From positions 1 to 64,000 of the forward strand of contig JAPWUD010000006.1 in assembly GCA_028275705.1 (NCBI GenBank): a stretch of DNA of 64,000 nucleotides, written 5' to 3'. Below, in pieces: positions 1 through 59,725 of the stretch. Numbering within the stretch: position 1 is the first letter of the stretch; each line of letters opens with the position of its first letter. The stretch is from Desulfurococcaceae archaeon. Lineage in GTDB: Archaea; Thermoproteota; Thermoprotei_A; Sulfolobales; Desulfurococcaceae. The position numbers and the translations under genes were made by a program. The notes under the pieces are model-generated. The model made no database searches. It had not been told where the DNA came from and saw only the letters and a program-made list of their open reading frames with translations.

Positions 1-917
1 TGAGCTAGGAACATGTATGGTATTAGCATGTCACCCATGTGTCTATCAAAAGCCATACCAGTCTCGTAGTCTTCGAGTAGGGATAAGGCTGCCTCCTCGC
101 CAACTCTCTCCGCTGGTTTACCCTTCTCTCCGAGTGCGTCTCCTCCAAGCCTCACGTTTTTATCTGTCTCAACGTAGACTAAAACCCCGCTACCGGGGCC
201 TAGGTGGGGGTCTTTGTCTGGTGGATATGTTTCAACAACTACTCTGGGCTCTACGTTTATATACTTCTTGATTAAGCCTAGTGCTGACTCGGCTTGGCGT
301 CTAGCCACGTGGTGGGGTAGCTTAACGCAGTGGCTTATAATGTATAGTCCCACGGGCTTACCCCTTGAAACTATGTCTACGGGGTTTAATGGCGCTTTAA
401 CGGGTTTTACGAGTAGCTCAACTACACCTCCACCCCTCGGGTAGTGTCCCCTCCTCTCCAACTTAATCTCTAGTTCAACCCCGAAGTGTTTTAAATTATG
501 TGAAAACACGTGGATCATGTAGTCTATTGGAGGGCTTAGAGGCACATTTGTACCACCTTTAATCACCACTCTCGAGGTGCAATCGCTATAGAGTAGTACT
601 GGTAGTATTGCTTGAATCACTAGTGATACACTACCAGCTGTTCCAACATCGAAGTAGAAGTCTCCGCAAAGCCTCTCCCTAGGCTTAAATACTAGTCTAG
701 AACTACCGACAAAGGCGCCTTCAACATCTGCTTTTGTCAAGTCAGCTAGGGCTTTTACAGCTGTTAAATGCTGTGGTCTTAGACCTGGATTACTCCTCTT
801 AGCCCTTATATTGTAGATCTCTATGGGTTTTAAAAGTAGTGCGGATAGTGCTATAGAGTACCTTAGTATCTGCCCCCCACCCTCCCCCATGCTTCCATCA
901 ATGCGCAGTATGCTCAT
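1..917 (-). CDS. rtcA: RNA 3'-terminal phosphate cyclase (RtcA), 3' end cut by window edge
   Basis: RtcA converts an RNA 3'-phosphate to a 2',3'-cyclic phosphate using ATP through a covalent enzyme-AMP intermediate. The minus-strand frame is open from an ATG at 917 to the window edge. The N-terminus carries the family glycine-rich motif DGSMGEGGGQILRYSIALS, followed by RSNPGLRPQHLTAVKAL, GSxxLxFxP and FDVGTAGSVSLVIQ blocks, all typical of the cyclase fold. A late block DRHMGDMLIPYMFLA contains the conserved region of the C-terminal third that normally holds the adenylated histidine (H in DRHMGD). The first 20 bases overlap the end of the upstream nadM gene, so the two are probably co-transcribed. 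The remaining C-terminus lies outside the window. Confidence 0.93.
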   Translation of the reverse strand, partial: MSILRIDGSMGEGGGQILRYSIALSALLLKPIEIYNIRAKRSNPGLRPQHLTAVKALADLTKADVEGAFVGSSRLVFKPRERLCGDFYFDVGTAGSVSLVIQAILPVLLYSDCTSRVVIKGGTNVPLSPPIDYMIHVFSHNLKHFGVELEIKLERRGHYPRGGGVVELLVKPVKAPLNPVDIVSRGKPVGLYIISHCVKLPHHVARRQAESALGLIKKYINVEPRVVVETYPPDKDPHLGPGSGVLVYVETDKNVRLGGDALGEKGKPAERVGEEAALSLLEDYETGMAFDRHMGDMLIPYMFLA

Positions 918-1425
918 CTAGACACAGCCTCCTAACTCTCTCAACCCCCTTGATCTCGTCAATGTACTCAGCAACCTCCAATGGGACGAGTTCTCTCCAC
1001 TCATCACTACCGTGGATCATTAAGTCCCTTATCCTAGTCCCATAGTACTTACTCGGCTCAACCAACCTAATCCTCTTAACAGGGTAACCAAGCCACTCAA
1101 ACAAGTAGAGTGTTTGTGGATTTCCAGAGGCTACAGCATCCACTCTTGGAGCCATTGAGAGTGTGTAAGCAGTCCAAGTCAAAGGCATGTTTATGTCGGG
1201 AACAGTGATCATCCAAACCCTCCCAGTGAGGTTATTCCTCTTCACTACATTATACACCATCTCCCAGCGTTCACCAGCTGTAAAGGGGTTTCTACAAGTA
1301 TAGCCCTCCTGTGCACTACCAATAGCAACCACTACCTCGTCGTACTCCTCTAGTAGCTGTGTTAGTGCAGCGTAGTGTCCCTTGTGGAATGGCTGGAATC
1401 TACCTGGGAATAATACACGCTTCAA
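898..1425 (-). CDS. nadM: Nicotinamide-nucleotide adenylyltransferase, archaeal type
   Basis: Transfers AMP from ATP to NMN, making NAD+. At 175 residues it has the usual length of archaeal NadM. Visible signatures are the nucleotidyltransferase motif GRFQPFHKGH (residues 8-17, with the HxGH histidines at 14 and 17) and the second phosphate-binding region around SKYYGTRIRDLM (125-136), where archaeal enzymes have the I/S-x-x-x-x-R-R/D element. It ends by overlapping rtcA by 20 bp and starts 27 bp after the aCPSF1 gene, so the minus-strand run aCPSF1-nadM-rtcA looks like one transcription unit. Confidence 0.93.
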   Translation of the reverse strand: MKRVLFPGRFQPFHKGHYAALTQLLEEYDEVVVAIGSAQEGYTCRNPFTAGERWEMVYNVVKRNNLTGRVWMITVPDINMPLTWTAYTLSMAPRVDAVASGNPQTLYLFEWLGYPVKRIRLVEPSKYYGTRIRDLMIHGSDEWRELVPLEVAEYIDEIKGVERVRRLCLDEHTAH

Positions 1426-1452: not shown

Positions 1453-3393
1453 CTACTGGGCTGTTAAGTGTATAGAGTCTAGGTTTGATGGTGTAAGGAT
1501 TCTCTCAGCATAAGACCTTATCTCCTTTGATTTCTTCAATAGTGTTGCAAGAGCCTCAATAGCGCTTGGTTCACCGTGGTTTAGTATTATTGTCTTAGGC
1601 TTTGGATTAATATCTCTAGCATAGGCCACCAACTCCCTTTGGTCGCTGTGTCCACTAAACCCCTCAATACTCTCAACCTCTAAGGCAACCTTAATTACTT
1701 CAACTTTGTTTTCAACCACTATGGGGACTTCCTTCATGCCATCCTTTACCATTCTCCCAAGAGTCCCCTCAGCCTGGTATCCTACAAATACAACTGCGTT
1801 TCTAGGATCTTCAGCTAGGAGCTTAAAGTACTCTACTGCCGGTCCTCCATTAAGCATTCCATTAGTAGCGATAATTACGGAGGGCCTATCCTCCACTATA
1901 TCGGGCCTTGCAACAGGGCCTTCGAGGACTCTAACGTGGTCTGTAATGAATGGGTTTTCACCATTATATATATCATCTCTAACCTTCTTACTCAAGTACT
2001 CTGGGTATTGGAGGTGTATAGCTGTTACCTCGTTGACTAAACCCTCTACATAGATGTTTATCTCCGGTATTTGCTTCTCCTTCATGGCTTGGTTTAGTAC
2101 GAGTAGTATCTCCTGCCCCCTACCAGCCGCGAATACGGGGATTAATGTAACTCCCTTACGCTCTGAAACCTTCTTCACGATATCTATTAACCTTGCTTCA
2201 GCCTGTGGTCTCGGCTCCTGTAGGCTTGCTCCATAAGTACTCTCCATTATCAACGCCTCTACCCTCGGGAACTCCGTGTTTGCTCTACTCAATAGCCTTG
2301 AGTCAGCGTACTTGAAGTCACCTGTGTAGACAACATTGTATAATCCCATTCCAATGTGTAAGTGGACTATCCCGGAGCCCAGTAGGTGTCCTGCATTATA
2401 CATTGTTAGCTTTACATCTGGCGCTACATCTGTTACTTCATCATAGTCAACTGTTATAGTGTGTGTTAGTGTGGTTAGTAAGTCTTTTTCACCATAGGGG
2501 AGGTATCTACTCGACCTACGTGAAACCTCTATGAGGTCTTTCAGCATTATAGCCATGAGTTCTCTAGTGGGTTTTGTCACGTATACTGGCCCTCTATAGC
2601 CATACTTGTATAAGAGTGGTATTAAGCCAACGTGGTCTAGGTGTGCGTGAGTAGCTATAACTCCATCTAGTTCATCTACTCGGAGAATATCGATTATTGG
2701 GTATGCCTTACTGGGGTCGTTGAATGCTCCAACGTTTATTCCAAAGTCTAGTAGTATCCTGCTCTCACGGGTTTCAACGAGTATCGAGGACCTCCCAACC
2801 TCTTTGAAGCCTCCTAGAGCTGTTACTCTTACATAGTTGTTCTTGTAAACAACGTCTCTATGTACCCTCTCCCCCAGATACCTCATGAATTCAAGCCTAT
2901 ACTCACTCTGCTTCAATAAGTAGTGTGTAATCTCCTTGAGCGTCTTAGTTTCAAATGGCGTGGTCCGTAGCGGTACAACCCTCCAACCCGTCTCAGCGAG
3001 TAGCATGTTTCTAAAGACATTTCCCCTCCCCACTATGTACCCAGGCTTTGCAGCCTTAACTATAACCTCTCCACTCGCTTCATCGAAGTATATTGCATCG
3101 GGGTCTACACCTGCCTCCCTCGGAGAGCTCTCTATTATGATCTTCTTGGCTTCATCTGGGCTAAGCCTAGCGTCTGGTGAAACCCTTATAACAATTCTCT
3201 TTCTAACTTTCTTCGCGATTGATTGTGCTAGTGCTGGGTACTTTACAAGTGCTTTTCTATTCCTAACATATATTACTATCAACGGCCCCTCAAACTCTAT
3301 GTTGGATAATTCAAGCTCTTGTGGTATTTGCTCCATTATACTCTTTAACAGCATTAATTTTCCTCTATCTAGTATTAGCCTACCAGATGCCAA
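1453..3393 (-). CDS. aCPSF1-type KH-domain beta-CASP ribonuclease
   Basis: Archaeal homologue of the cleavage and polyadenylation specificity factor nuclease (FttA/aCPSF1), which in characterised archaea cleaves nascent RNA and takes part in transcription termination. The 646 residues show an N-terminal region of two KH-type RNA-binding domains (about 1-150), then a metallo-beta-lactamase core with THAHLDH at 248-254, the HLLGSG and GDFKY metal motifs and ESTYG, and finally the beta-CASP region with motif C GHSDQREL near the C-terminus. All metal ligands appear intact, so it should be active. Length and order match the archaeal family. Confidence 0.94.
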   Translation of the reverse strand: MASGRLILDRGKLMLLKSIMEQIPQELELSNIEFEGPLIVIYVRNRKALVKYPALAQSIAKKVRKRIVIRVSPDARLSPDEAKKIIIESSPREAGVDPDAIYFDEASGEVIVKAAKPGYIVGRGNVFRNMLLAETGWRVVPLRTTPFETKTLKEITHYLLKQSEYRLEFMRYLGERVHRDVVYKNNYVRVTALGGFKEVGRSSILVETRESRILLDFGINVGAFNDPSKAYPIIDILRVDELDGVIATHAHLDHVGLIPLLYKYGYRGPVYVTKPTRELMAIMLKDLIEVSRRSSRYLPYGEKDLLTTLTHTITVDYDEVTDVAPDVKLTMYNAGHLLGSGIVHLHIGMGLYNVVYTGDFKYADSRLLSRANTEFPRVEALIMESTYGASLQEPRPQAEARLIDIVKKVSERKGVTLIPVFAAGRGQEILLVLNQAMKEKQIPEINIYVEGLVNEVTAIHLQYPEYLSKKVRDDIYNGENPFITDHVRVLEGPVARPDIVEDRPSVIIATNGMLNGGPAVEYFKLLAEDPRNAVVFVGYQAEGTLGRMVKDGMKEVPIVVENKVEVIKVALEVESIEGFSGHSDQRELVAYARDINPKPKTIILNHGEPSAIEALATLLKKSKEIRSYAERILTPSNLDSIHLTAQ

Positions 3394-44703: not shown

Positions 44704-44907
44704 ATGCCTATAGTCCACGTATACATGTGGAGTGGGGTATCAAGAGAGGCTAAGGAGAAGATAATCAAGGGCATAACAAGGGTATTCGAGGAGCTTGGAA
44801 TACCAGGGCACGCAGTGGAAGTAGTAATACTTGAGGTGCCTAAGGAAAACTGGGGAGTAGGGGGAGAACAAGCAAGCGAGAAATTCAAGGAGACTAGGCC
44901 TCCCTAA
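44704..44907 (+). CDS. 4-oxalocrotonate tautomerase family protein
   Basis: 67 residues starting MPIVHVYMW: after Met removal, Pro1 would be the catalytic base, as in the tautomerase superfamily. It continues SREAKEKIIKGITRVFEELG and VEVVILEVPKENWGVGG, the conserved positions of 4-OT-like enzymes. Natural substrate unknown. Confidence 0.88.
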   Translation: MPIVHVYMWSGVSREAKEKIIKGITRVFEELGIPGHAVEVVILEVPKENWGVGGEQASEKFKETRPP

Positions 44908-44929
44908 GTAACTAAGCGTCTATGTAGAT

Positions 44930-46249
44930 ATGAGTAGAGAGAATAGACCTATAATGATTGTCGCTGGTACTAGGCCTGAGGCTATTAAACTAGCCCCTGT
45001 TATATGGTCTCTTGAGAAACTCGGAGTAGACTACGTGTTTGTATGGAGTGGGCAGCACTATGACTACGAGATGAGCCGTGTATTCTTTAATCAACTAGGC
45101 TTACCCGATCCCGATTTAGATCTCGATGTTAGGAGTGGTAGCCACGCTGAGCAAACAGCTAGAATAATGATTGGTGTTGAGAAAGCGATAATTGACTATA
45201 AACCCTCCATAGTTGTAGCACAAGGCGATACCAATACAACACTAGCCTCAGCACTAGCCTCTGTAAAATCACTAACACCTTTCGCACACGTCGAGGCTGG
45301 TTTGAGGAGTTGGGATAGGACAATGCCAGAGGAAGTAAATAGAGTCGTAGCTGACTCTATAGCAGAGTTAAACTTTGCACCTACATGGCTTGCAGCAGTG
45401 AACCTTATGCATTCTGGTGTACCGTTGAAGAAGATATATGTGACAGGTAATACAATAGTGGATGTAGTCTACAAGTACAAAGATCTAGTAGTTGAGTGGG
45501 GGGAGAAATTACTCGGAGAATACAAGCTAGAGCCCGGTAATTACGCACTAGTAACTATTCATAGACAGGAAAACACTGATAACCAGTGGCGATTAGAGAA
45601 TATAGTTAAAGCACTAATCGAGTTATCAAAGCATATTCCAGTAGTATTCCCCGCGCACCCCAGAACCACTAGGAGGCTTGAGGCCGTTGGACTACTTGAG
45701 TCTTTGAAGAAGAACGTAAAGCTTCTCAGTCCACTAGGCTACTTTGAATTCCTGGGACTACTCAGCAAATCTGCAATTGTTTTAACAGATAGTGGTGGTG
45801 TTCAAGAAGAGGCATGCATACTGGGAATTCCGACTCTTACCCTTAGATATAATACTGAGAGACCTGAGACTGTATTAGCCGGGTCAAATATACTCGTAGG
45901 TGTTGAACCAGAAAAGGTCGTCCCCATAGCTCTTGATATGATCAAGCGTAGAAGTGAAATAGCTAAGAAAAAGGGGTGTGGCAATCTCATAGGGGATGGA
46001 ACAGCGGGAGAAAAGATATCTAAGATCCTTAATAAGTTCAAGGATGATGCAACCATAGAGACTCGCGATACACGGGAAGATCCGTACATAGTACATGTAT
46101 TAATTGACACTTCAGAAAACATGGAGGATCTATCTGTAAAAGGAGAGATAATTGCTATGTATGATGACCATGGATTTCCCACCATAGATATAAACTCGGC
46201 GAGAAAAATAGTCATTAGAGTGGCAAAACACTGTCTACTAACAAAGTGA
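44930..46249 (+). CDS. wecB: UDP-N-acetylglucosamine 2-epimerase with extra C-terminal segment
   Basis: Makes UDP-ManNAc from UDP-GlcNAc. Begins IMIVAGTRPEAIKLAPVI, then GQHYDYEMS, VVAQGDTNTTLASAL, HVEAGLRSWDR, MPEEVNRVVAD and LVTIHRQENTD, and SGGVQEEACILGIPTLTLR, all as in WecB. The core ends near residue 372; about 65 further residues (starting with DDATIETRDTREDPYIVHVL) are absent from ordinary epimerases. This segment has no domain I recognise. First gene of the glycan locus. Confidence 0.91.
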   Translation: MSRENRPIMIVAGTRPEAIKLAPVIWSLEKLGVDYVFVWSGQHYDYEMSRVFFNQLGLPDPDLDLDVRSGSHAEQTARIMIGVEKAIIDYKPSIVVAQGDTNTTLASALASVKSLTPFAHVEAGLRSWDRTMPEEVNRVVADSIAELNFAPTWLAAVNLMHSGVPLKKIYVTGNTIVDVVYKYKDLVVEWGEKLLGEYKLEPGNYALVTIHRQENTDNQWRLENIVKALIELSKHIPVVFPAHPRTTRRLEAVGLLESLKKNVKLLSPLGYFEFLGLLSKSAIVLTDSGGVQEEACILGIPTLTLRYNTERPETVLAGSNILVGVEPEKVVPIALDMIKRRSEIAKKKGCGNLIGDGTAGEKISKILNKFKDDATIETRDTREDPYIVHVLIDTSENMEDLSVKGEIIAMYDDHGFPTIDINSARKIVIRVAKHCLLTK

Positions 46250-46279
46250 TTTGTTCTGCTATCTAGAGGTGAGGCAACT

Positions 46280-47524
46280 ATAAGGAAGACGCCTAACATT
46301 ATACTAGTTACGCATCACTTTCCGCCTGAAGTAAATGGAACCGCGACAAGAGCATTTGAAATAGCCAAGATAATGATCAAAAAACATCCAGGCATCAGGT
46401 TATTCGTGATATCACCGCCTCCCGTTAGACCTTTTGGTAGGTTCCAAGTCGATCTGAGACCATTACGCATTATTAAGTTGAGCGGCAATCTCTATCTAAT
46501 ACGAGTTTGGAGTTATCAACCCATCAGCCCTAATCCATCGGTTTTTGAACGTCTTCTCAATTACATAATTTTTCCAATTCTCGCCATACCGATTATTATA
46601 GGTCTTGGACTATTCTCAAAGAGAATTATGTTCATAATACCACCATCGATTTTGACCATTATAGTTCCATTTATTAAACCATTGAGGAGTAAAATAATAT
46701 TGGACGTTACTGATCTCTGGCACGAAGAGGCCCAACTTCTGGGTTATATAAAAAGTCGTTTACTCACCGCTATATCTAGAGGGGCAGAATTACTTGCATT
46801 AAAACTTGCCCATGTAATTACCGTGGCTACATACTCTATCGGGAAATATTACGTATATCTTTTAGGCAACAAGAAAAAGAGGATATATGTACTACCAACA
46901 CCCATTGATGAGCTATTGGTAAAGAAGCATCGAGATACAAAGACTTTGCTGAGCTCAAATACCTCGTATGATACTATAGTATATGCAGGTAATTTTGGAA
47001 AACCGCAAGCTTTAGATTTTGCAATAAAAGCCTTCAAAATCCTTAACGAAAGAGGAGTCAAAGTCAAGTTATTATTGATAGGAGGGGGTGAAGAAGAAAG
47101 GTCTCTTAAACATCTTGTGAATATTCTTGGGGTAAACAACGTTGAAATCAGACCTCCAGTATCTAGGGAGGAGTTATTTAGTCGCATATATTCACAGGCA
47201 TCAGCAGGGCTTCTGGCACTTTCCCATGTTAGAGCATTATTTTATGCTATTCCCACAAAAATGTATGAATATATAGTGTGTGAGTTACCAATAGTAGCTT
47301 ATGGAAGCAGCATAGAGGTCAAACGCGTTATCACAAAATGGCGTCTCGGAGTGTATGTAACCGAAAACGATCCGCAAAAATTGGTTGAAGCCATAATGTT
47401 CTTAATGAACAATAAACATTTATTTATAGAAAATACCAGGAAGTATGCATTATATCTAACAAAACAAGTGTACGAAGTACTTGATAATATTATCTATGAC
47501 AAGCACAGAGACGTTTCAAGATGA
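46280..47524 (+). CDS. Glycosyltransferase family 4-type, predicted AUA start
   Basis: A 414-residue GT-B glycosyltransferase. The first ATG of the frame (46373) would drop the conserved N-terminal beta-strand and loop, yet the reading frame upstream encodes NIILVTHHFPPEVNGTATRA, a typical family start. Between the preceding stop (46247-46249) and 46373 there is no ATG, GTG or TTG in this frame. A strong ribosome-binding site, GAGGTGAGG (46266-46274), ends 5-7 nt before an ATA at 46280-46282, which gives (M)RKTPNIILVTHHF. C-terminal features include VYAGNFGKPQALDFAIKAF and PTKMYEYIVCELPIVAYG. Overlaps the next gene by 4 bp. Confidence 0.82.
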   Translation: MRKTPNIILVTHHFPPEVNGTATRAFEIAKIMIKKHPGIRLFVISPPPVRPFGRFQVDLRPLRIIKLSGNLYLIRVWSYQPISPNPSVFERLLNYIIFPILAIPIIIGLGLFSKRIMFIIPPSILTIIVPFIKPLRSKIILDVTDLWHEEAQLLGYIKSRLLTAISRGAELLALKLAHVITVATYSIGKYYVYLLGNKKKRIYVLPTPIDELLVKKHRDTKTLLSSNTSYDTIVYAGNFGKPQALDFAIKAFKILNERGVKVKLLLIGGGEEERSLKHLVNILGVNNVEIRPPVSREELFSRIYSQASAGLLALSHVRALFYAIPTKMYEYIVCELPIVAYGSSIEVKRVITKWRLGVYVTENDPQKLVEAIMFLMNNKHLFIENTRKYALYLTKQVYEVLDNIIYDKHRDVSR

Positions 47525-48588
47525 ACCTCGATGATAAACTCAAAGGTCTCAAAATCGATAGCGTGTTTCTTGTAAGAATACTAGGACTTAGACCATTGGA
47601 AACGACTAATGCAGCCTTAATAAATGAATTGAGCACGAGTGAACTACGTAAATTATACTGGTACGCTAAGATTAACAAAATAGGCTTTACTTACCTGAAG
47701 GCCCTAGAGAAGGCCGATGTATTAAAGAGGATCCCCGAACTCAAAAAAGAACTTGAAGTACAGGAGAAGATGTATGAGAAACATAATGAATCTATAGAGA
47801 TTATAAGCAACATATTAACTGATCTAGGCGTAGACCACGTCTTCATAAAAACTATTTACGACTTCCCCATGCTTCCCTCCGACATAGATATCCTTATATA
47901 TGGTGAAACTTTAGAAAATGTTGCATCTGCTCTAATCAAAAAAGGTTTAAAGATTTTTGATAAAGGCCCTCACTTTATTTCCATTTATAATACAATCGTA
48001 GATGCATCAGCTCAGCGTCCAAAGATGAGCTACGATATTGATATATATGATGAGATTTCTCTCAGCTACTTCAAGTATATGGACAAATCATTGTGCTCAA
48101 GTGATAGATATAAATATTCCAGCGGAGTAGAGGTATTATCAGCCGAGTGTGAGCTACTTATTCACATTAATCATTCACTCTTTGAGCATCTTTTTACTTT
48201 ATCTCACTTATACGTAATCTCCACGTTACTACCTCGAATAAACTTCCATAAGCTGGAAATCTTGAGTAATTTAGCTGAATCGAGAGTTCCACTAGCTCTC
48301 GTCTCCGAAATAGTAAATAAAGTACTTAAGTACTACCAGGACGGGATGCCCACCCCACTAGTAAAATTCGTGAGGTCTTTCCAAAACAAGAAATACACTA
48401 CAATTAGAGTCAGCCAACTACCATATCGTTATAGCTTAAAGCATGTTGCAGAGGCAATAATAGAAAAAGTACGTAAAAAATATTATTTGCTATCAATGCT
48501 CGAATTCACACATGCGCTCCGTAGCCAAGAAGAGTTAAATCATATAATGTTTCACATCATACTGAGAAGAAAAAGAATAACATATTAA
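47521..48588 (+). CDS. Nucleotidyltransferase-fold protein (NTP_transf_5-like)
   Basis: 355 residues with HVFIKTIYDFPMLPSDIDIL (near 123-142), where SDIDIL is the metal-binding DxD, and later YDIDIYDEIS and ELLIHINHSLFEH. This resembles a family of uncharacterised nucleotidyltransferases found in polysaccharide loci. It begins 4 bp before the end of the previous gene (ATGA). A broken gene with the same architecture lies at 59.7 kb. Confidence 0.7.
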   Translation: MNLDDKLKGLKIDSVFLVRILGLRPLETTNAALINELSTSELRKLYWYAKINKIGFTYLKALEKADVLKRIPELKKELEVQEKMYEKHNESIEIISNILTDLGVDHVFIKTIYDFPMLPSDIDILIYGETLENVASALIKKGLKIFDKGPHFISIYNTIVDASAQRPKMSYDIDIYDEISLSYFKYMDKSLCSSDRYKYSSGVEVLSAECELLIHINHSLFEHLFTLSHLYVISTLLPRINFHKLEILSNLAESRVPLALVSEIVNKVLKYYQDGMPTPLVKFVRSFQNKKYTTIRVSQLPYRYSLKHVAEAIIEKVRKKYYLLSMLEFTHALRSQEELNHIMFHIILRRKRITY

Positions 48589-48603
48589 AGGGCTTGGCTA
48601 AAC

Positions 48604-49506
48604 ATGAACAATGTGGTAATATCAGTCATTTTACCTACATATAATCGAGTTTCTACTATTAAATATACATTTGAAAGTCTATTAAACCAGTCATTTAAAG
48701 ATTTCGAAGTTATTATTATAGATGACACCCCTAACGATAAAGTCTACAGCTTCCTTTCTTCACGTGGCTATTTACTCAAAGACAACGTAATTTATTTCAA
48801 GACCAGCAAAAGATACGGATTACCAGCTTCACGAAACAAAGGAGTTTTATTAGCAAGAGGTAATCTCATATTGTTTATTGAAGATGATATTATCTTAGAT
48901 CGTGATGCACTGCTAATTCTCTACGTTACATATAAGGTCGTGAAAAAGAAAGTGAAAAAACTTGGAGCAATCGTTCCAGCGAGACCAATAATCATGGTGA
49001 ACTATACATCGCCTTTAATAACTAGCTTTATAATGAAGCATCTAAAGCGACCCCTTATTGAGAGTTCAATAACTCGTTTAATTTATCAAAAATATGATAC
49101 GGAGTATAATGGTATTTTTGAAATACCTACAGGTCATCCGTGTGCTTTGTTTGAAAAGGAAACACTAATTAAGATTGGGCTATTTGATTACAAAACGTTT
49201 AAGGGAAGTTTCGAGTTTGAGGAGACAGACTTATTCACACGCCTTAGGAGGAGTGGATTCATTATAATATACCAACCGAAAGCGATTTTTCATCATATCC
49301 AAGTTAATGAAGGGGGATGCAAGACTTCACTATTCAAAAAAGCTAAGAGCTTCATGAGTAATTATGTGAAGTATTTAACAAAACATTACACTCCCGCTTC
49401 ATTATTGCCAAGATTAATTCTTGCACTAGTGGAAACTAGTGTTATGTTCGTTCTGACAAAGCTAGAGGCCATTATATCAATATGCGCGATTGTACATCGG
49501 AGATAA
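48604..49506 (+). CDS. GT2 family glycosyltransferase
   Basis: 300 residues. GT-A start VVISVILPTYNRVSTIKYTF, IIIDDTPND, GLPASRNKGVLLARGNLILF and IEDDIILD (DxD equivalent), then FEETDLFTRLRRSGF. A C-terminal hydrophobic stretch (about 270-295) may bind the membrane. A 15-bp gap separates it from the previous gene. Confidence 0.88.
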   Translation: MNNVVISVILPTYNRVSTIKYTFESLLNQSFKDFEVIIIDDTPNDKVYSFLSSRGYLLKDNVIYFKTSKRYGLPASRNKGVLLARGNLILFIEDDIILDRDALLILYVTYKVVKKKVKKLGAIVPARPIIMVNYTSPLITSFIMKHLKRPLIESSITRLIYQKYDTEYNGIFEIPTGHPCALFEKETLIKIGLFDYKTFKGSFEFEETDLFTRLRRSGFIIIYQPKAIFHHIQVNEGGCKTSLFKKAKSFMSNYVKYLTKHYTPASLLPRLILALVETSVMFVLTKLEAIISICAIVHRR

Positions 49507-49521
49507 GTTATTAAGTAAAAC

Positions 49522-50571
49522 ATGACATCTATGGAACATAAGATAATATTTGTGACATTTAAAATATTCTTTTATGCGGAGGGTAAATCAAATATCGTTA
49601 AAGAGCTATCTGATACTCTCGCTTCTCTGGGGATAAGCACCGAGGTTATTCATCTCAATCCTAGGAATTTTATAAAACTACAAAGTATAATTTCAAGACA
49701 CAAAAGTTTGGCTACAGTGATCCTAGTAGTAGGGCCATCCTCTCTTTTATCCCTCGTAGTAATGGCGTACTTCTCGCTTCTGAGAAAGGTCTATAATACA
49801 AAACTTCTCGTGTATATGGTTCAACCAACGCTACTAAATACAGGTTCTACTTTAATTAAGACGCTAACACAAGGCATTCTTCGAATTATTGGTGTTGATA
49901 AAATATTGGTTCAATCAAAAGGAGTATATCGAATTCTTAGATCACTGGGTCTGAGAGCTGGGTTATTGCCTAGTGGAGTTTCTACGGAGAAGTTTAGACC
50001 ATGTAGCCTAGAAGAAAAATTACACTTAAGAGAGAAGCATGGGTTACCGGCATACGTTAAGATAATACTACACGTGGGGCCGATAAAGAAAGGTAGGGGA
50101 ATAGAGCATATAATGCCACTTTGCAACTGCCCCAATATAATGGTCTTAATAATTGGGAGACCCCATGATTTTGATGCAAAACTTGTGAAGGAGGCTACAG
50201 AAAGGGGATGTATGGTATATAATAGGTTTTTCAAGAACATAGATGAAGTATACAGGCTTTCTGATGTGTACGTATTCCCAACTAGGTCAATAAAAAATGC
50301 AGTCGATCTACCCCTCTCAATATTAGAAGCTATGGCATGTAACCTAGTAGTAGTTACCTCTCAGCTAGATGGAATCACAACGTATTGGAATAATAACCCT
50401 GAGCTAGGCTTCTACATAACTTATGATCCATCCCAGATACCAAGCTTAGTCGAGAAAATAGTAAAAGAAGGAAAATTACATGCTACAACGAGAGATCTCG
50501 TGAGACCTTTTGATTGGAAAAATATAGCAAGGATGCTTTTAATTCATATAATTGATGCCTATGCTAAATAA
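49522..50571 (+). CDS. GT1/GT4-type glycosyltransferase
   Basis: 349 residues with a GT-B layout. The C-terminal half contains IILHVGPIKKGRGIEHIMPL, VYRLSDVYVFPTRSIKNAVD and LPLSILEAMACNLVVVTSQL, matching the nucleotide-sugar site of GT4 enzymes (E-x7-E-like). The N-terminal half is divergent. Its end overlaps the next gene by 20 bp. Confidence 0.85.
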   Translation: MTSMEHKIIFVTFKIFFYAEGKSNIVKELSDTLASLGISTEVIHLNPRNFIKLQSIISRHKSLATVILVVGPSSLLSLVVMAYFSLLRKVYNTKLLVYMVQPTLLNTGSTLIKTLTQGILRIIGVDKILVQSKGVYRILRSLGLRAGLLPSGVSTEKFRPCSLEEKLHLREKHGLPAYVKIILHVGPIKKGRGIEHIMPLCNCPNIMVLIIGRPHDFDAKLVKEATERGCMVYNRFFKNIDEVYRLSDVYVFPTRSIKNAVDLPLSILEAMACNLVVVTSQLDGITTYWNNNPELGFYITYDPSQIPSLVEKIVKEGKLHATTRDLVRPFDWKNIARMLLIHIIDAYAK

Positions 50572-51241
50572 TAGGCTAATAGTGATAACGGGTCCCGACG
50601 GTTCTGGGAAATCACTATTAGCAAGATACCTCTACTATGTTTTGAGAAATAGAGGTGTGCCGGTTTGCCTGATGTACGGTGGATGGCGTAGCTTCAATAA
50701 TATATATGCACAATTAGTGAAAAAAATATGTCCAGCAATATCCAACAAGAATATAACCCATCTTTCATCGATCAAAAGTCCTAAAGCAAATATAGCCAGA
50801 AAAAAGAAGATCAAACTTTTGTTCAAACTAATAGTTTTATTGGATTATTACGCGTCCGTAATACTTAAGTTAATAATGTTCTCACTAATATATAGCATAG
50901 TAATCTTAGACCGTTACTTCATAGACCTAATAGTTAATATGTCTATAGACCTCGAAGAAGACGTGAGAGAAATGCTATCAACATATAGAATCGTCAAACC
51001 CATTATGCCGCGGCCTGAAAAAATATTTGTAATTATAGGCCCTCCTCAAATGATCTTTAAGAGAAAAAGCGACATCCCCAGCATCGATTTCTCAAGAGAG
51101 CAATGCAGAAGATTTCTCTTTATTTCAATGTATAGTCAGGAAATTCAAATAATAAGTGCACTAAAAAATTTGCAGGAAAAAGCCCATATAATATTACAGG
51201 AGACGGGTATCGAGTATGAGAATAGCATTCCTCATCGATAG
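50552..51241 (+). CDS. Thymidylate-kinase-like P-loop protein
   Basis: 229 residues starting LIVITGPDGSGKSLLARYLY, a P-loop in the form used by dTMP kinases, then VILDRYFIDLIVNMS (DR-Y motif) and a C-terminal region with KIFVIIGPP. In glycan loci such proteins are often distant relatives acting on unknown substrates rather than true dTMP kinases. The nucleotide-specificity part is divergent. Overlaps both neighbours. Confidence 0.75.
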   Translation: MMPMLNNRLIVITGPDGSGKSLLARYLYYVLRNRGVPVCLMYGGWRSFNNIYAQLVKKICPAISNKNITHLSSIKSPKANIARKKKIKLLFKLIVLLDYYASVILKLIMFSLIYSIVILDRYFIDLIVNMSIDLEEDVREMLSTYRIVKPIMPRPEKIFVIIGPPQMIFKRKSDIPSIDFSREQCRRFLFISMYSQEIQIISALKNLQEKAHIILQETGIEYENSIPHR

Positions 51242-52322
51242 ATTAGGCCTTGACGGCGTTTCTAGAGTTTGTTTGACGCAGTCCAAGGGGCTGGCGAGTA
51301 GAGGCGTTGAAGTGGCCATTTTCACCAAGAAAGTTTCTTCTCATATATTAAAATCACTAGACAGCATCAATATATTTAGAGTATATAATGAAGGTTATAA
51401 CGTGAGAAATACGCTACGTTCTTTGTCCGAATACGACATAGTTCACTCCCACTATATCACACTCAGCACTCTAGGCTCATTAATAAGTCTAGCTGGAATA
51501 CCTCACATATTTCATGAGCATGGACACTTCTTTCCCTATTTTCCAAGAAGTTTTAAATCCTTTGTAGGATTTACACGTTACATTCTATTTGAATCACCTA
51601 ACATAATATTATCCAAGCGAATCATAGCAATCAGCAACTTTGTAGATAGAGAAATACGAAGAATTTTCCCCTTTGCTAACGTGCAGAAGATACGTGTAGT
51701 TTATAATCCTATAGATAGCGGGATCTTCGGTCCAGTAAAAACCGAGAAAGCTAGAGAATTACTTGGGTTGGATGGTTTTCAACACATTATTCTAAGTATT
51801 CAATCTCCTGGGAGACAAAACGACTATGAGTACATACAAATAGTCAAAACTATTCTTTCAAAACAAAAAAATACAGCCATCATAATAATTACGAGAGATA
51901 GATACAGTTACGACTATATAAAGGAGAAATTGAAAAACCTCACTAGTGTTATTATATATAACAATATACCATCAGATCGTCATTTAAATTTACTATATAA
52001 TGCCTCGGATGTTTATTTTACGATATCAAGGTGGGAAAGTTTTGGCTATACAATTGCGGAGGCCATGTTTGTGGGTAAGCCAGTCATAGGATACGATATA
52101 ACCGCAATAGGGGAGCTTATAGTCAATGGATTTAATGGGTTTAAGGTGCCCATTGGACGGTGGGATCTTCTAACAAATGCTATTTTAACGCTTCTAAATG
52201 ATGAGGAAATACGAAAGCAATTTGGTAAAAATGCGAGGGAATTCGCAGTTGAAAGCTTCTCACTAGATATAATAACCCAAAGACTACTAGCGATTTATAA
52301 AGAAGTGGTGGAGTCGAAATGA
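51216..52322 (+). CDS. GT4-type glycosyltransferase
   Basis: 368 residues with a full GT-B fold: IAFLIDRLGLDGVSRVCLTQ, IVHSHYITLSTLGSL, HEHGHFFPYF, VYNPIDSGIF, and C-terminal SRWESFGYTIAEAMFVGKPV, with the E-x7-E motif (ESFGYTIAE). Overlaps the kinase-like gene by 26 bp and the next gene by 4 bp. Confidence 0.9.
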   Translation: MRIAFLIDRLGLDGVSRVCLTQSKGLASRGVEVAIFTKKVSSHILKSLDSINIFRVYNEGYNVRNTLRSLSEYDIVHSHYITLSTLGSLISLAGIPHIFHEHGHFFPYFPRSFKSFVGFTRYILFESPNIILSKRIIAISNFVDREIRRIFPFANVQKIRVVYNPIDSGIFGPVKTEKARELLGLDGFQHIILSIQSPGRQNDYEYIQIVKTILSKQKNTAIIIITRDRYSYDYIKEKLKNLTSVIIYNNIPSDRHLNLLYNASDVYFTISRWESFGYTIAEAMFVGKPVIGYDITAIGELIVNGFNGFKVPIGRWDLLTNAILTLLNDEEIRKQFGKNAREFAVESFSLDIITQRLLAIYKEVVESK

Positions 52323-52750
52323 CACGGTATGATGAGTGTTCAGGAGCTCCTAGCTTAGTATTATTCTCTTTTCCATATCCTTCATCAGCTAGGCTGGTGC
52401 TACTTGTGAATTTAGTCTCGTTATTAGCTCCTCTCTGCAACAAATTGTATATAATATCTGCTATAGATAGCTCCTACTTAGCGAAGCTAAGAACTTATGC
52501 ATTAAAAAATAGCCGTGGACACGTGTATGTCGTGAACATAACTAAAAAATTACCGAGGTTTTCTAGTTTTTCAATAAAGGAGGTTCTCAGATGGATTTCA
52601 AACTACATTTCAATACAGGCGGTGTTTTTTGCATATAGCATAAAGTTAGTTGGCCAGGTGGATATAGCGTTTTTCTTCGTGGGGATAAGAGATTTTATTC
52701 CATTGATGATATATATGAAGTTGCATGGGAAACAGATTGTGTGGTATTAA
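52319..52750 (+). CDS. N-terminal half of a split GT1/GT4 glycosyltransferase
   Basis: 143 codons that read like the N-terminal Rossmann domain of a GT-B enzyme: ARLVLLVNLVSLLAPLCNKL, DIAFFFVGIRDFIPLMIYMK. It ends at a TAA (52748-52750) just after GKQIVWY. The next gene, in the same frame with only five codons between, encodes the matching C-terminal domain. A one-base change of this codon would fuse both into a 398-residue enzyme of usual length. Confidence 0.7.
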   Translation: MTRYDECSGAPSLVLFSFPYPSSARLVLLVNLVSLLAPLCNKLYIISAIDSSYLAKLRTYALKNSRGHVYVVNITKKLPRFSSFSIKEVLRWISNYISIQAVFFAYSIKLVGQVDIAFFFVGIRDFIPLMIYMKLHGKQIVWY

Positions 52751-52765
52751 AAAGGTGCACTAAGA

Positions 52766-53518
52766 TTGTTTAGGATGAAAGTAGAGAATTATATGGAGAT
52801 TCTCGCTTCAATTCTAGCAGATATAATTGTCACAGAAGCTTTACTACCGCATTTTGAAACAAGACCTCGCGGTCTTTTCCCATATAAGTTGCATCCGGGG
52901 CTAAGATATATTAATCTTGATAGGTTCAAATTACTTAAAACTATTGACCAGCGGGAAAATGTTATAGGCTTTATTGGAAGACTCGAAGAAGATAAGGGAG
53001 TAATAGATTTTATTAAGATCTCTCAGCTTGTATCGTTAAAAACAAGAAAACATGGTTTGAACGCTCGTTTCTATATAGTGGGGTCAGGAAGACTCGACAA
53101 GGTGGTTAGAAGCATTACTGCTAGGATGAGCGACAAAGGCATGGACATTAAGTTCTACGGATTTATAGAAAATGATTTACTTCCAACACTCCTTAATGAA
53201 ACAAAGATCTTGATATTACCATATAAATCACCCGCTGAAGGGATCCCAACTGTGGTTTTAGAGGCGTTTGCATGTGGAGTCCCCGTTATTGCATATGATA
53301 CTGGGCTCATTAAATCTGTTGTAATAAATGAGTTAACAGGCTTTGTTGTTCCAATAAACAACTATAAGGCAATTGTTAATTTAGTTGTTCAATTGTTATC
53401 ACATCGGGAATTATTAATGAATATCTCAAGAATTCAGAGGAAATTTGCAGAGGAATTCTTAAGCTATGAAAAAGCTTTAGAGAGATATGAAGTATTGTTC
53501 ACAAGACTCTGGGGATAA
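52766..53518 (+). CDS. C-terminal half of a split GT1/GT4 glycosyltransferase
   Basis: 250 residues with NVIGFIGRLEEDKGVIDFIK, IVGSGRLDKVV, FYGFIENDLLPTLLNETKIL and SPAEGIPTVVLEAFACGVPV, the nucleotide-sugar half of GT4 enzymes. TTG 52766 is preceded by AAAGGTG (52751-52757), so it could start on its own; ATG 52775 is an alternative. Same frame as the previous gene; see that entry. Its end overlaps the next gene by 32 bp. Confidence 0.75.
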   Translation: MFRMKVENYMEILASILADIIVTEALLPHFETRPRGLFPYKLHPGLRYINLDRFKLLKTIDQRENVIGFIGRLEEDKGVIDFIKISQLVSLKTRKHGLNARFYIVGSGRLDKVVRSITARMSDKGMDIKFYGFIENDLLPTLLNETKILILPYKSPAEGIPTVVLEAFACGVPVIAYDTGLIKSVVINELTGFVVPINNYKAIVNLVVQLLSHRELLMNISRIQRKFAEEFLSYEKALERYEVLFTRLWG

Positions 53519-55304
53519 TGCGGCATGGGGTGGGGGCGCTATTAGTTTAAAATATTTAAAAGTACTTAAAATCGCAGTGATTCCCACGTTATGGTTTATT
53601 ATCCCACTACTCGCTCCCATATCTCAATACTACGTTCTCGCATATAATGATTCAACCATGACATACATAGTGCTTTCTCTAATCGTTACATCAATAATTG
53701 TGTTTTCTTATAGGAGTCGCATAATTAGCATGGATGGTAGACTAGAAGGTTTGGTTACCCATATAGTATTAACCTATAGCATTCTACTAATGCATACTAG
53801 CAGTTTTGCAGTTGGATTATATGGTGTCGATGTTTACAATGAATACCGCTATTCTTTAAATGTTTTAAAGTCAGGATTCTCTGCGTTATCAAGTGATCAA
53901 GCGACATCTAGTTTCGGTCCACTTGTCATTCCCGCAATTATTTCGATGATAACTTCTATTCGACTCGTAGATTTTTACCGGGCATTCCTACCATTACTTC
54001 TCGCCACGGTCAGCATACCATTAATTCTAGTCTATAGGAAAATGCTCGAGGACGATGCATTATTAAGGAGCTATAATATTCCGCAAGGAATGACATATCT
54101 CCTCCCACTTTTCATCGTTTTCACGACAACGTATATACATACGCTTCTCTCTGCACCTCGTCAAGGCTTGGCATTGTTGTTATATACATACATGTTGTAT
54201 TCGTTTCTTGAACTACATGAAAAGAAATCAATTAAATTTGTGTTTACGACTTCTCTTTTATCAGTAGCCCTTGTTCTATATCATTACTCTACATTTTTCT
54301 TGTATATAGCTTTCATACTTACATTAATCTTCGTTGAATTATTAATTCGCGTATTAGGAATTAAGCATGGCAAATCATACTTTGATGTATTCATGTTGAT
54401 TATATTCATTATCTCTATCATATTTGGATCGCTATGGTATGTATATACTCCAGTTGTAGCTGGAATCACGGCTAGTGTGAAATTTGCTATTAAAAGACTC
54501 CTTACACTCGAATCGATTCTAGAATATGCTAGCCCGATAATTCCAGTTAAACAATACTATATTGACATTAGATCTTTTATTAATTTGGCCATTAATGGAG
54601 TGCTTGTTCTTGGATATCTACATTATATGATATCAATGCTGAGACGAAAACACCACGATACCGCAGGAGAAGATCTATCATCGTATTTTTCACTCTTTAC
54701 AAGTAGTTTCATACTACTTGCTCTCACCCTGCTACTAAGTTCCTGGATAAGTAAATATGGTATTGGAAGGGCTTACATTCAATTCCTAATTACGGCTGTC
54801 CCACTAGTAGTATTAGCTATACCGTCGCAGATAAGTAACAAAATAAATACTACTATACTAGCAAAGTTTTTATTGACTACATTGATCATTTTTAGTCTAT
54901 TTAACTCAACATATTTGACTGAGGCTCTTCAGGGGGTTTATCAATCAAGTATTTATGACAGATTAGCATACATGCGTGGATATATGGGTGTATATACGCA
55001 AGACTTAGATGTTGTAAACTATATATTTATATACTCGCTAAACAGTCATGTTGTAATAACAGATTATTTTGGAGAAAATGTCTTCAAATTGCGAGGAGAG
55101 CTCTCCAACTTGACAACAATACATAATGAACTAAATGGAATATACTCTTACGGGCATGCCATTGTGATTTTAAGATACTACAACATTGCCTCGAAAATTA
55201 TATTTTCATATACAACTGGAATCATATCACTAAATGTGTACTTGAATAAATTAACGTCATTCAATCTAATATATAATAATGGAGCATGCGTGTTTGCCTT
55301 TTAA
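53487..55304 (+). CDS. Polytopic membrane protein, GT-C-like, of the glycan locus
   Basis: 605 residues with about 12-13 TM helices. After the early TMs an extracytoplasmic loop reads GLYGVDVYNEYRYSLNVLKS; an acidic D-x-x-x-E pattern there resembles GT-C transferases. The end is a ~110-residue soluble part. It could be a lipid-linked sugar transferase or a polymerase. No flippase of Wzx type was found in the window. The ATG lies within the previous gene (32-bp overlap). Confidence 0.6.
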   Translation: MKYCSQDSGDNAAWGGGAISLKYLKVLKIAVIPTLWFIIPLLAPISQYYVLAYNDSTMTYIVLSLIVTSIIVFSYRSRIISMDGRLEGLVTHIVLTYSILLMHTSSFAVGLYGVDVYNEYRYSLNVLKSGFSALSSDQATSSFGPLVIPAIISMITSIRLVDFYRAFLPLLLATVSIPLILVYRKMLEDDALLRSYNIPQGMTYLLPLFIVFTTTYIHTLLSAPRQGLALLLYTYMLYSFLELHEKKSIKFVFTTSLLSVALVLYHYSTFFLYIAFILTLIFVELLIRVLGIKHGKSYFDVFMLIIFIISIIFGSLWYVYTPVVAGITASVKFAIKRLLTLESILEYASPIIPVKQYYIDIRSFINLAINGVLVLGYLHYMISMLRRKHHDTAGEDLSSYFSLFTSSFILLALTLLLSSWISKYGIGRAYIQFLITAVPLVVLAIPSQISNKINTTILAKFLLTTLIIFSLFNSTYLTEALQGVYQSSIYDRLAYMRGYMGVYTQDLDVVNYIFIYSLNSHVVITDYFGENVFKLRGELSNLTTIHNELNGIYSYGHAIVILRYYNIASKIIFSYTTGIISLNVYLNKLTSFNLIYNNGACVFAF

Positions 55305-56982
55305 TATTTCCAAGTGGGCAGATCAAATGAGTGCTAGAAACAATCCTGATACAAACAGATATGTTAATCATTCCCTTAGAGTATGTATTATTACGCCTTA
55401 TGTATTTGTTGCTAATGAAATCGCTAAACGCCTTGATTCCAAGGGCTTCTCCACACTGGTTATTACTGTGACTCCCTCGAAGCTATATAAACACTGTTCT
55501 AACTACCTCACAAGACCTGATAGAAATAACACAGTTGTTTTTCTAAGCGGCATCCGTACTTTATTTACATCTGTTATTACCGTGTTTCGCTTCAGGCCTA
55601 ATATAATACAGCTTTATACCGGAGGCGGTCGACTAGGATTTGCCCTGTATCTCGTAGTTTTCTTAAGTAAGTTGTTGTTTGGTGCCAGGGTTGTTAGTTT
55701 TATAATGGAGCCCGTTCCGAGAATGGGGATAAGGAATCGTAGATTGGCGTGGCTTGAGACCAGGCTTGAGATTCTATTATCCTCAGTCGTCATCACTGAT
55801 ACAGAAAGGTTGAAGCGCCTGATAATAGGTGTCCACAAGATGCCTCCTAGTAGGGTCTTTGCATTTACAAATGAGTGGGATGCACCATGTTTCGCAATAC
55901 CGCAGAGTGGTGAGAAGGAAGAGGAGGATTGGATTCTCTTCTTCGGCAACGTCGAGGATTATAAAGGCTTGGAATACTTGATCCTAGCTGAACCATTAAT
56001 TACTAGTGAAATTCCACGAGCTAAAATAGTCATCGCCGGCAGAGGGCAGGAGAAGTATTATCATCTTATTAGGAACAAGGACAATTTCCTCCTGCTAAAT
56101 AAATTTGTCGACTACGATGAGGGCTCGGTCTTAATTAAGAAATCAAAAATCATAGTCTTGCCCTATAAAACGGGAACAGTGAGTGGTGTAATCCCAATAG
56201 CATACGCCTTCAAGAAGCCCATAGTTGCTACTAGAGTCGGGTGCTTTGACGAAGTAATAAAGCATGGTGAAACAGGAGTTCTTGTGGAACCCCATAATCC
56301 CACAGAGCTTGCGAGGGCACTCGTTTACCTCTTAAAAGATGATGAACTACGTAGGAAACTAGGCGAAAAAGGTTTTGAGAAATTAAAGAGGGAATTCTCC
56401 TGGGATGTGTTTGTATCTAAATTAATGGTCATCTACCAGAAGTTGATTTCACGACGTAACCGGCAGAGTGATCCAAAGACAAAGATGTTGATAAAGCGTG
56501 CCACGATCCTCGATCTCCATAAGATATATTCGTTCTATGAGAAAATAAGCCTCGATGCAACCACGAGTTTTTTCTACAGAAGGGTTTTGCCGAGAAGTAT
56601 CACATCACGTATCTATTTTATTACTCGCATCGCTTTAAATATACTCTTTAAGAAGGAGATATTTGCTATGTTGCTAAATAATGGAAGCATTATAGGGCTC
56701 TCGCATATTTTGGTATCGAGGAATAAGAAATATGGAGAAGAAGGGATTGTCCTATTGAAGGAGCACCAAGGGAAGGGGCTTAGCACGTTACTGGCATTCT
56801 ACACTCTTAGAGAGGCTAGAAGAGAGGGGGTGAAGGCTCTATGGGCCATTATAGATGTAGACAACTACCCTTCCATAAAATTACATCAAAAACTAGGATT
56901 CCGCATAATTAAGGTTATGCCGAAAGCAGCTTCTAGACATGGTCGTCCCGTAGACATGTACCTGTTAATAAAGACCCTTTAA
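55279..56982 (+). CDS. Glycosyltransferase fused to a GNAT N-acetyltransferase
   Basis: 567 residues in two parts. About 30-385 is a GT4-type enzyme: VCIITPYVFVANEIAKRLDS, WILFFGNVEDYKGLEYLI, VSGVIPIAYAFKKPIVATRV, LVEPHNPTELARALVYLL. About 395-567 is a GNAT domain: LIKRATILDLHKIYSFYEKI, EEGIVLLKEHQGKGLSTLL with the acetyl-CoA loop QGKGLS (497-502), and DNYPSIKLHQKLGFRIIKV. The acetyltransferase may N-acetylate an amino sugar (for example perosamine) made by the next two genes. Starts ATG 55279 or ATG 55327. Confidence 0.85.
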   Translation: MEHACLPFNISKWADQMSARNNPDTNRYVNHSLRVCIITPYVFVANEIAKRLDSKGFSTLVITVTPSKLYKHCSNYLTRPDRNNTVVFLSGIRTLFTSVITVFRFRPNIIQLYTGGGRLGFALYLVVFLSKLLFGARVVSFIMEPVPRMGIRNRRLAWLETRLEILLSSVVITDTERLKRLIIGVHKMPPSRVFAFTNEWDAPCFAIPQSGEKEEEDWILFFGNVEDYKGLEYLILAEPLITSEIPRAKIVIAGRGQEKYYHLIRNKDNFLLLNKFVDYDEGSVLIKKSKIIVLPYKTGTVSGVIPIAYAFKKPIVATRVGCFDEVIKHGETGVLVEPHNPTELARALVYLLKDDELRRKLGEKGFEKLKREFSWDVFVSKLMVIYQKLISRRNRQSDPKTKMLIKRATILDLHKIYSFYEKISLDATTSFFYRRVLPRSITSRIYFITRIALNILFKKEIFAMLLNNGSIIGLSHILVSRNKKYGEEGIVLLKEHQGKGLSTLLAFYTLREARREGVKALWAIIDVDNYPSIKLHQKLGFRIIKVMPKAASRHGRPVDMYLLIKTL

Positions 56983-57066
56983 GTTGTCTTTCTTCATAAA
57001 AACACTCATATATGCTACCAGAATTATTGTATATTGAATTATTGAAAGGTTGAGAGGTTGCTCGAG

Positions 57067-58128
57067 ATGGGGAAGAGGGCTCTGATTACGGGTATAACTG
57101 GGCAGGACGGTGCGTATCTTGCTAAGTTTTTACTGGATAAGGGGTATGAGGTGTATGGTACTTACCGGAGGCTTAGTACTCCTAACTTCTGGCGCTTGGA
57201 ATATCTTGGTGTTTACCATAAGGTGTATCTCATCCCAGCAGACCTCACCGATATGTCCTCTATTATAGAGGCGTTGAAGATATCCGAGCCCGACGAGGTA
57301 TATCATCTTGCGGCTCAGAGCTTTGTTGAGGCCAGCTTTGAAACTCCCGTGGCAACGGGTGATGTAACGGGTCTTTCTACTACGAGAATTCTAGAAGCTA
57401 TCCGCCTTGTGTACCCTGAGACAAAGTTTTATAACGCGGCGACCAGTGAGATTTTCGGTAAGACAGGGATACTTAACGGTGGAAGACCTCTTAATGAAAA
57501 CGACCCCTTCATGCCCATGAGTCCATATGCTACCGCTAAGCTCTATGGTTTCTGGATAACAAGGATATACCGCGAGGCGTACGGGATCTTCGCTGTTAAC
57601 GGGATACTCTTCAACCACGAGTCGCCTCTCCGTGGACTAGAATTCGTAACTAGGAAGATATCTAATGAAGTAGCCAAGATTTACCTTGGACTCAGCAAGG
57701 AGCTAAGACTTGGGAACCTCGATGCGAAGAGGGATTGGGGATATGCACCAGAATACGTGGAGGCGATGTGGCTCATGCTCCAACAGAAAGAGCCGGACGA
57801 CTACGTCATAGCAACAGGTGAAGCCCACAGTGTGAGGGAATTCGTTGAAAAAGCCTTCGGGCTCATGGGTTTAGACTGGCAGAAATACGTTAAAGTTGAT
57901 AAGAGGTTCTTTAGACCCCTAGACGTCCCATGCTTAGTTGGCGATTACTCAAAGGCTAAGCACAAGCTCGGCTGGGAGCCAAGAACAAAGTTTGACAAAC
58001 TAGTTGAAGTAATGGTTAATGAAGACGTTAGTCGCTGGGAGAGATGGCTCAAGGGAGAAAGGTTCCCGTGGGATGCACCTAATTACCCGAGTGAAAGCAA
58101 TGTTCTTACAAGAGCTTTGAGGATGTAG
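57067..58128 (+). CDS. gmd: GDP-mannose 4,6-dehydratase
   Basis: Converts GDP-mannose to GDP-4-keto-6-deoxymannose. From ATG 57067: RALITGITGQDGAYLAKFLL (NADP-binding GxxGxxG), VYGTYRR, VYHLAAQSFVEASFETPV, NAATSEIFG, SPYATAKLYGF (YxxxK with Thr in place of the usual Ser-Tyr spacing residues), and FNHESPLRG, a GMD signature. 353 residues, usual length. GAGAGGTTG precedes the start. The base composition is closer to the core genome than in the genes before it. Confidence 0.93.
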   Translation: MGKRALITGITGQDGAYLAKFLLDKGYEVYGTYRRLSTPNFWRLEYLGVYHKVYLIPADLTDMSSIIEALKISEPDEVYHLAAQSFVEASFETPVATGDVTGLSTTRILEAIRLVYPETKFYNAATSEIFGKTGILNGGRPLNENDPFMPMSPYATAKLYGFWITRIYREAYGIFAVNGILFNHESPLRGLEFVTRKISNEVAKIYLGLSKELRLGNLDAKRDWGYAPEYVEAMWLMLQQKEPDDYVIATGEAHSVREFVEKAFGLMGLDWQKYVKVDKRFFRPLDVPCLVGDYSKAKHKLGWEPRTKFDKLVEVMVNEDVSRWERWLKGERFPWDAPNYPSESNVLTRALRM

Positions 58129-58129
58129 A

Positions 58130-59254: not shown

Positions 59255-59725
59255 GAGTTCATTCAATGCTTACTGAACTTAAAAGACGTTGTCTTTAAGC
59301 TACTTATTCGAGGGTTAGATGTTACTATTAGCCAAGTATGTATTTTCGAAAATAGGCTTCAAGACCAAGCTCTATGTAAAATTGGTGGCTGTGTAAGTGA
59401 AATTTCTCCAGAAGTTTTCGCTTTTCTAATAAGCTCGTTCTGCGTGGATTAGTTAAAAGTACCAAGTGTTTAAATAGTAAAATTCCTTTAAACGATGTAG
59501 CTGTAGATAAGCTTAACGATGTACTTTTAATCCAATAAAATTCCCTTCAAGTTTTTTACTGGAGATATGATGAAACCCGTAATTCCTGGATTAAACAAGA
59601 TATTCGCTTTAGAAAAATGCATGGGTCTATAATCGCAATATTTAAATATGGCGAATGTGGAGTAATTCACGAATAGCTCCCTAATTGTTTCTGCAGCGTT
59701 GGTTTGTAAAAATGTTTTTCAAGGA
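59255..59725 (+). other. 471-bp AT-rich stretch without an intact gene
   Basis: No frame gives a convincing protein. A short stretch around 59393-59448 reads SEISPEVFAFLISSFCVD before a stop and could be the degraded N-terminus of the nucleotidyltransferase pseudogene that follows, but similarity cannot be shown by eye. A 9-base repeat, AACGATGTA, occurs at 59493-59501 and 59515-59523. Confidence 0.4.

Follow-up and report, generated by a model that had tools for sequence, protein, structure and literature searches.

Which codon starts the glycosyltransferase gene at this locus? In the window, that is, the whole 64,000-nucleotide stretch of DNA that was analysed, the open frame at 46250-47524 on the forward strand codes for a GT4-type glycosyltransferase, in which a profile search finds PF00534 (Glycos_transf_1, C-terminal; 61.6 bits, above the cut-off of 26.4) and PF13692 (62.4 bits). 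An earlier note on this DNA held that the frame has no canonical start upstream of its first ATG, and this is confirmed: none of the 41 codons of the frame from 46250 to 46372 is ATG, GTG or TTG, and the first in-frame ATG stands at 46373. The local features are the following.

44930..46249, forward strand: wecB-type UDP-N-acetylglucosamine 2-epimerase gene, the upstream neighbour (PF02350, 344 bits; same neighbour in locus L043)
46247-46249, forward strand: stop codon TGA of wecB
46266-46274, forward strand: GAGGTGAGG, which contains GAGGTGA
46266..46272, forward strand: Shine-Dalgarno (SD) sequence GAGGTGA, complementary over 7 bases to the 16S 3′ end, at distance 8 from ATA
46280..46282, forward strand: ATA, proposed start codon, in frame; the only third-base-changed AUG at the usual SD distance, with codon-level parallels in L12ae and CoxM as a further basis
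46280..47524, forward strand: GT4-type (WcaI-like) glycosyltransferase, 414 amino acids from ATA (PF00534, PF13692, PRK10307, orthologue L043/L091)
46373..46375, forward strand: first in-frame ATG, 31 codons 3′ of ATA, without an SD
47521..48588, forward strand: nucleotidyltransferase-like gene with an ATG start, downstream (PF14907, 26.4 bits, below the cut-off of 31.2)

The nucleotidyltransferase-like gene overlaps the GT4 stop codon by 4 bases, and 16 bases separate the end of wecB from the SD. The locus belongs to a surface-sugar gene cluster (window 44900-59300) with a G+C content of 0.38-0.40, compared to 0.44 in the first 44 kb; its genes, judged by eye, use ATG more than those in the rest of the window. 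Elsewhere, the window holds an archaeal SRP RNA at 14829-15102 on the reverse strand (RF01857, 136 bits).

The first line of evidence concerns the N-terminus. The nearest relative found is encoded in a Candidatus Methanomethylicia MAG (CALHIW010000056.1, locus L043/L091) and is 44-45% identical; in L043 it is likewise preceded by an epimerase gene of the same type and followed by a nucleotidyltransferase-like ORF, the latter likeness being judged by eye. The two proteins share the motif VTHHF.PEVNGTATR, which lies wholly upstream of ATG 46373, and the GT4 sequence appears to include the first strand of the N-terminal nucleotide-fold half. In all 15 full-length relatives inspected (the L043 orthologue and 14 others), an ATG, GTG or TTG precedes the N-terminal strand by about 2-12 codons. 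The WcaI-family model (NCBIfam PRK10307) points the same way: translated from ATA, the protein scores 59.1 bits from profile position 3, compared to 49.1 bits from profile position 37 when translated from ATG 46373, so that the upstream part adds 10 bits. The match to the WcaI family begins at residue 7 and covers the profile whole-length, but at 59.1 bits it is far below the model cut-off of 276. Judged from these comparisons, the N-terminus upstream of 46373 is real, conserved protein, as the earlier note had proposed from the frame itself. Structural resources add little: an AlphaFold model of GT4 built from a two-row alignment has a mean pLDDT of 35, and a PDB sequence search with GT4 gave one match only, which is chance-like.

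A comparison of orthologues at the ATA codon, which the earlier note had suggested, is favourable for the N-terminal strand, which is conserved, but not for the codon itself. Relative to the position that aligns with ATA 46280, the L043 orthologue has its starting ATG three codons upstream and another ATG four codons downstream. Since this ATG-starting gene is the only orthologue found, an AUH start is not seen conserved among GT4 orthologues. No orthologue closer than 45% was found among 214 genomes of the order, 398 sampled genomes of the phylum and 121 MAG relatives (overlapping sets); the gene is patchy and not common to close relatives.

This patchiness, together with the position of the first canonical start at 46373, would fit a broken gene that has lost its start and is decaying, or that yields only a truncated protein from ATG 46373. 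However, all 424 codons of the frame are uninterrupted and include a conserved GT4 domain, and the SD is intact as well. ATG 46373 lacks an SD and lies past the conserved strand, and a start there would remove the first strand and loop of GT4. A broken gene is thus quite unlikely.

The second line of evidence is the SD itself. The 16S 3′ end of the source genome is GGATCACCTCCT (locus L022), and distance is counted here from the A of GGTGA to the first base of the start codon. The earlier note had described GAGGTGAGG as a near-perfect ribosome-binding site at the right distance from ATA. The site is indeed strong and, at distance 8, well spaced from ATA 46280, but only GAGGTGA (46266-46272) of it pairs with the anti-SD. 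In a first sample of 322 genes, 13 have an SD of at least 7 nucleotides, the strength class to which the GAGGTGA of GT4 belongs, and distances of 5-8 are the commonest (84 of the 132 genes with an SD of at least 5 nucleotides). Counting both strands, the window holds GAGGTGA 7 times, and matches to any 7-mer of the SD number 43 in 128 kb. This gives a chance of about 0.002 that an SD 7-mer falls 4-9 bases before a given codon, or about 0.008 when the four in-frame ATA codons before 46373 are allowed for. The 16S gene in L022 (G000:C1:6686-9256) spans 2571 bases compared to a model of 1478 positions, and probably holds one or more introns.

The spacing also bears on the choice among near-cognate codons, as CTG 46256, ACG 46289, ATT 46298 and ATA 46301 are all in frame as well, and CTG 46256 follows an SD-like stretch of 5 bases, GTGAT, at distance 7. 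CTG 46256, however, precedes the strong SD; ACG 46289 has only GAGG at distance 12, and the scan gives no SD match for 46298 or 46301. A start at one of these codons is very unlikely.

The reading frame invites a further explanation, namely that wecB and GT4, which share one frame with a single TGA between them, are joined by read-through of TGA 46247 into a fused epimerase-glycosyltransferase. A shared frame arises by chance in one third of cases, and in L043 the corresponding genes (83..1381 and 1486..2727) are 104 bases apart and out of frame with each other. In the window, moreover, a strong SD stands between them. Read-through is therefore most unlikely.

The third line of evidence, initiation from ATA 46280 being the reading under consideration, comes from other genes of related archaea. 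According to a remark in the genome paper of Staphylothermus marinus (PMC2678158), the gene for ribosomal protein L12ae (Smar_1096) lacks a valid start and seems to begin at ATC. This prompted a reading of L12ae (PF00428) in relatives, where 38 of 53 loci have a readable N-terminal motif; the other 15 were dropped. Directly before the motif EY[IV]Y stands ATA or ATC in 24 of the 38 and ATG or GTG in 14. Fifteen of the readable loci have no canonical codon in frame within 20 codons, and in every one of them the SD register is followed at exactly 7 bases by ATA (9) or ATC (6); ten belong to the window's family, probably Desulfurococcaceae, and five to other families of the same order. They are listed here.

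L12ae loci without a canonical start: L311, L312, L313, L318, L320-L322, L326-L328, L331, L332, L336, L337 and L358

L12ae genes of the window's own genus also carry an in-frame GTG, joined in one genome by an ATG, 2-3 codons earlier, so the ATA or ATC there need not be the start. Genome G028 is presumably that of S. marinus. Its L12ae has ATC at SD distance 7, in agreement with the published remark (PMC2678158). S. marinus L12ae and GT4 are both archaeal genes, from organisms of probably the same family, and both lack a canonical start and carry AUH behind an SD. They differ in that L12ae has ATC and is an essential, conserved ribosomal protein, whereas GT4 has ATA and is a patchy gene.

A second gene family was met in a genome sample of 697 kb, including the window, with 649 genes, in which further genes with an SD and a near-cognate but no canonical codon turned up. 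The clearest of them, listed here, has AGGTGAT followed by ATA at distance 7.

L042:4838-5716, forward strand: CoxM/XdhB-type FAD subunit gene (PF00941 from residue 2)

After five paralogues were set aside, 28 CoxM orthologues were read. In 17 of them a canonical start is absent before the conserved N-terminus, and 15 of these 17, from eight genera, have a near-cognate codon 7-8 bases behind an SD of at least 5 bases. The codon is ATA in nine (G000, G006, G012, G024, G032, G022, G035, G010 and G009), ATT in G021 and G029, ATC in G023 and G031, and TTA in G020 and G028; the remaining two are G026 (ATA, weak SD) and G034 (ATC, no SD). The other 11 orthologues have a canonical start, and in G003 an ATG stands exactly where ATA stands elsewhere. 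The ten leaders examined have no forward-strand frame across the SD with more than 37 open codons; on the reverse strand, open frames reach 174 codons, which has no bearing on the start. A tree of 30 rows, made up of the 28 orthologues plus two paralogues, requires six changes of the non-canonical label, and this label extends over whole subclades, which indicates that the non-canonical start has been kept through speciation.

A wider test considered SDs at gene starts without a canonical codon nearby, in samples of four genomes and with GT4 left out. Behind such orphan SDs of at least 7 bases, a near-cognate codon stands at distance 6-8 in all six cases compared to 2.2 expected (p 0.0024), although three of the six genes are CoxM orthologues and so are not independent. 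With an SD of at least 6 bases, the figure is 11 of 16 compared to 5.8 expected (p 0.008). For ATA, ATT and ATC alone behind an SD of at least 5 bases, the excess is weak and not significant (5 compared to 2.8 expected, p 0.14).

Several single genes are of interest beside these families. A SoxA-like flavoprotein gene (L107:16155-17651, reverse strand) is without a canonical start in five of the eight genomes examined from the genus (G000, G006, G005, G002 and G007), and may start at TTA, ATA or TCG. In G000 and G006, the gene for an AK6-like P-loop kinase (L110:1866-2468, reverse strand) carries CTG behind GAGGTG at distance 8, in the place of the ATG or TTG of other genera; G002, G005 and G007 have a canonical codon 2-3 codons further upstream. 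Two more genes lack a canonical start in the vicinity and have another codon 7 bases behind an SD: one in G020 (L197:18043-19020, forward strand, ABC-transporter-like by eye) has ACG, and one in G025 (L223:2156-3016, reverse strand) has TCG.

Two candidates were discarded. The tRNA-splicing endonuclease gene (EndA; L041:13944-14534, reverse strand), which overlaps its upstream gene, lacks a canonical start in most relatives of the family, and nearly all family loci with a readable junction place ACG at distance 7 from GGTGA; outside the family, most relatives show a canonical start. An ACG start was nevertheless rejected: GGTGARGANNTACG appears to encode, in another frame, the C-terminal G-E-E-L-R of the upstream gene, and the conservation of ACG thus has another cause. 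In L105, a gene with ATA at distance 7 behind GGAGGTGA was set aside, as an ATG follows six codons later.

The recurrence in L12ae and CoxM bears on the possibility of an assembly or sequencing error at the GT4 locus, in which the true codon at 46280 is ATG (or GTG or TTG), or a start lies in another frame, masked by an indel. The genome is a single draft assembly of 42 contigs, one base change turns ATA into ATG, and the neighbouring frame offers TTG 46251 and GTG 46269 before it ends at TAA 46281. Since ATA was seen once, a base error may affect the codon itself. Starts in the other frame, however, would leave GAGGTGA without a purpose, and GTG 46269 sits inside the SD. Furthermore, ATA and ATC starts of the same layout recur in single-contig genomes (e.g. 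G020, G024 and G028). Recurrence of CoxM and L12ae starts across genomes and genera argues against simple sequence error, and ATA 46280 likely needs no such error as explanation. An error is unlikely, if the least so of the alternatives considered.

Translation of the GT4 glycosyltransferase from AUA 46280 is therefore considered probable, with good confidence. The earlier note had left three options (AUA in use, an ATG mutated to ATA with reduced expression, or a sequence error), and the first is the best supported, given the conserved N-terminus, the SD and the layout recurring in relatives' genes. It is compatible with the second, as an ATG that mutated to ATA can still be expressed.

A mechanism is suggested by this layout and by the near-cognate starts known in bacteria. 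The 16S rRNA 3′ end would pair with GAGGUGA over seven base pairs and set AUA in the P site, where Met-tRNAi (anticodon CAU) would read AUA by pairing at A and U, with a mismatch at the third base. Methionine would then start the GT4 chain, with a yield probably below that of AUG. The ribosomes could be recruited fresh from the mRNA or could arrive from wecB. A tRNA explanation for AUA decoding was not found: the sampled stretches, which make up less than half of the genome and in which intron-bearing tRNAs may escape the scan, hold one tRNA-Met (CAT) and nothing odd.

Near-cognate starts as such are already known. AUC, AUU and AUA are named as rare starts (PMC9094748). The infC gene, encoding IF3, starts with ATT in E. 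coli and ATC in Streptomyces, while sigR of Streptomyces starts with GTC, which was shown by experiment to limit expression (PMC5472188). Like the proposed start of GT4, that of infC is a third-base near-cognate, kept by evolution; it differs in its known autoregulation through IF3. The sigR start resembles that of GT4 in being a near-cognate that gene finders misplace, and differs in being bacterial and GTC. In a survey of start-codon switches, 61,358 ancestral AUG starts yielded two changes to CUG and one to AUU; AUA is absent from the available portion of its text (PMC5622118). Likewise, a review on initiation in archaea lists AUG, GUG and UUG, and AUA does not appear in its accessible part (PMC7531240). 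In a literature search confined largely to open-access papers, the S. marinus L12ae remark was the only mention of an archaeal near-cognate start found. Because start prediction relies on ATG, GTG and TTG (PMC5472188), it truncates near-cognate genes or marks them as broken, and L12ae itself would be affected in 15 of its 38 readable loci.

The interesting part is the lineage-wide use of AUA and AUC. GT4 appears to be one case of a wider habit in an archaeal order, probably Desulfurococcales, in which near-cognate codons, mainly AUA, AUC and AUU, follow an SD at a spacing of about 7 and have been kept over long times in L12ae and the CoxM-type subunit. By analogy to bacterial infC, the weak codon of L12ae could serve homeostasis, conceivably with the protein repressing its own start, and the archaeal fidelity factors, aIF1 and its partners, would be the judge. 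To our knowledge, archaea do not have the bacterial IF3. The joint reading, to which we give an even chance, is that Desulfurococcales keep a class of third-position near-cognate starts that includes GT4, and that the weak codon of L12ae is possibly homeostatic. The class would comprise AUA, AUC, AUU and perhaps UUA, about 7 bases after an SD, and would be found above all in L12ae and CoxM-type genes. Should selection maintain AUA and AUC starts across an archaeal order, archaeal start-codon fidelity becomes directly testable, and it may then be asked why these genes have such starts and which factor judges them.
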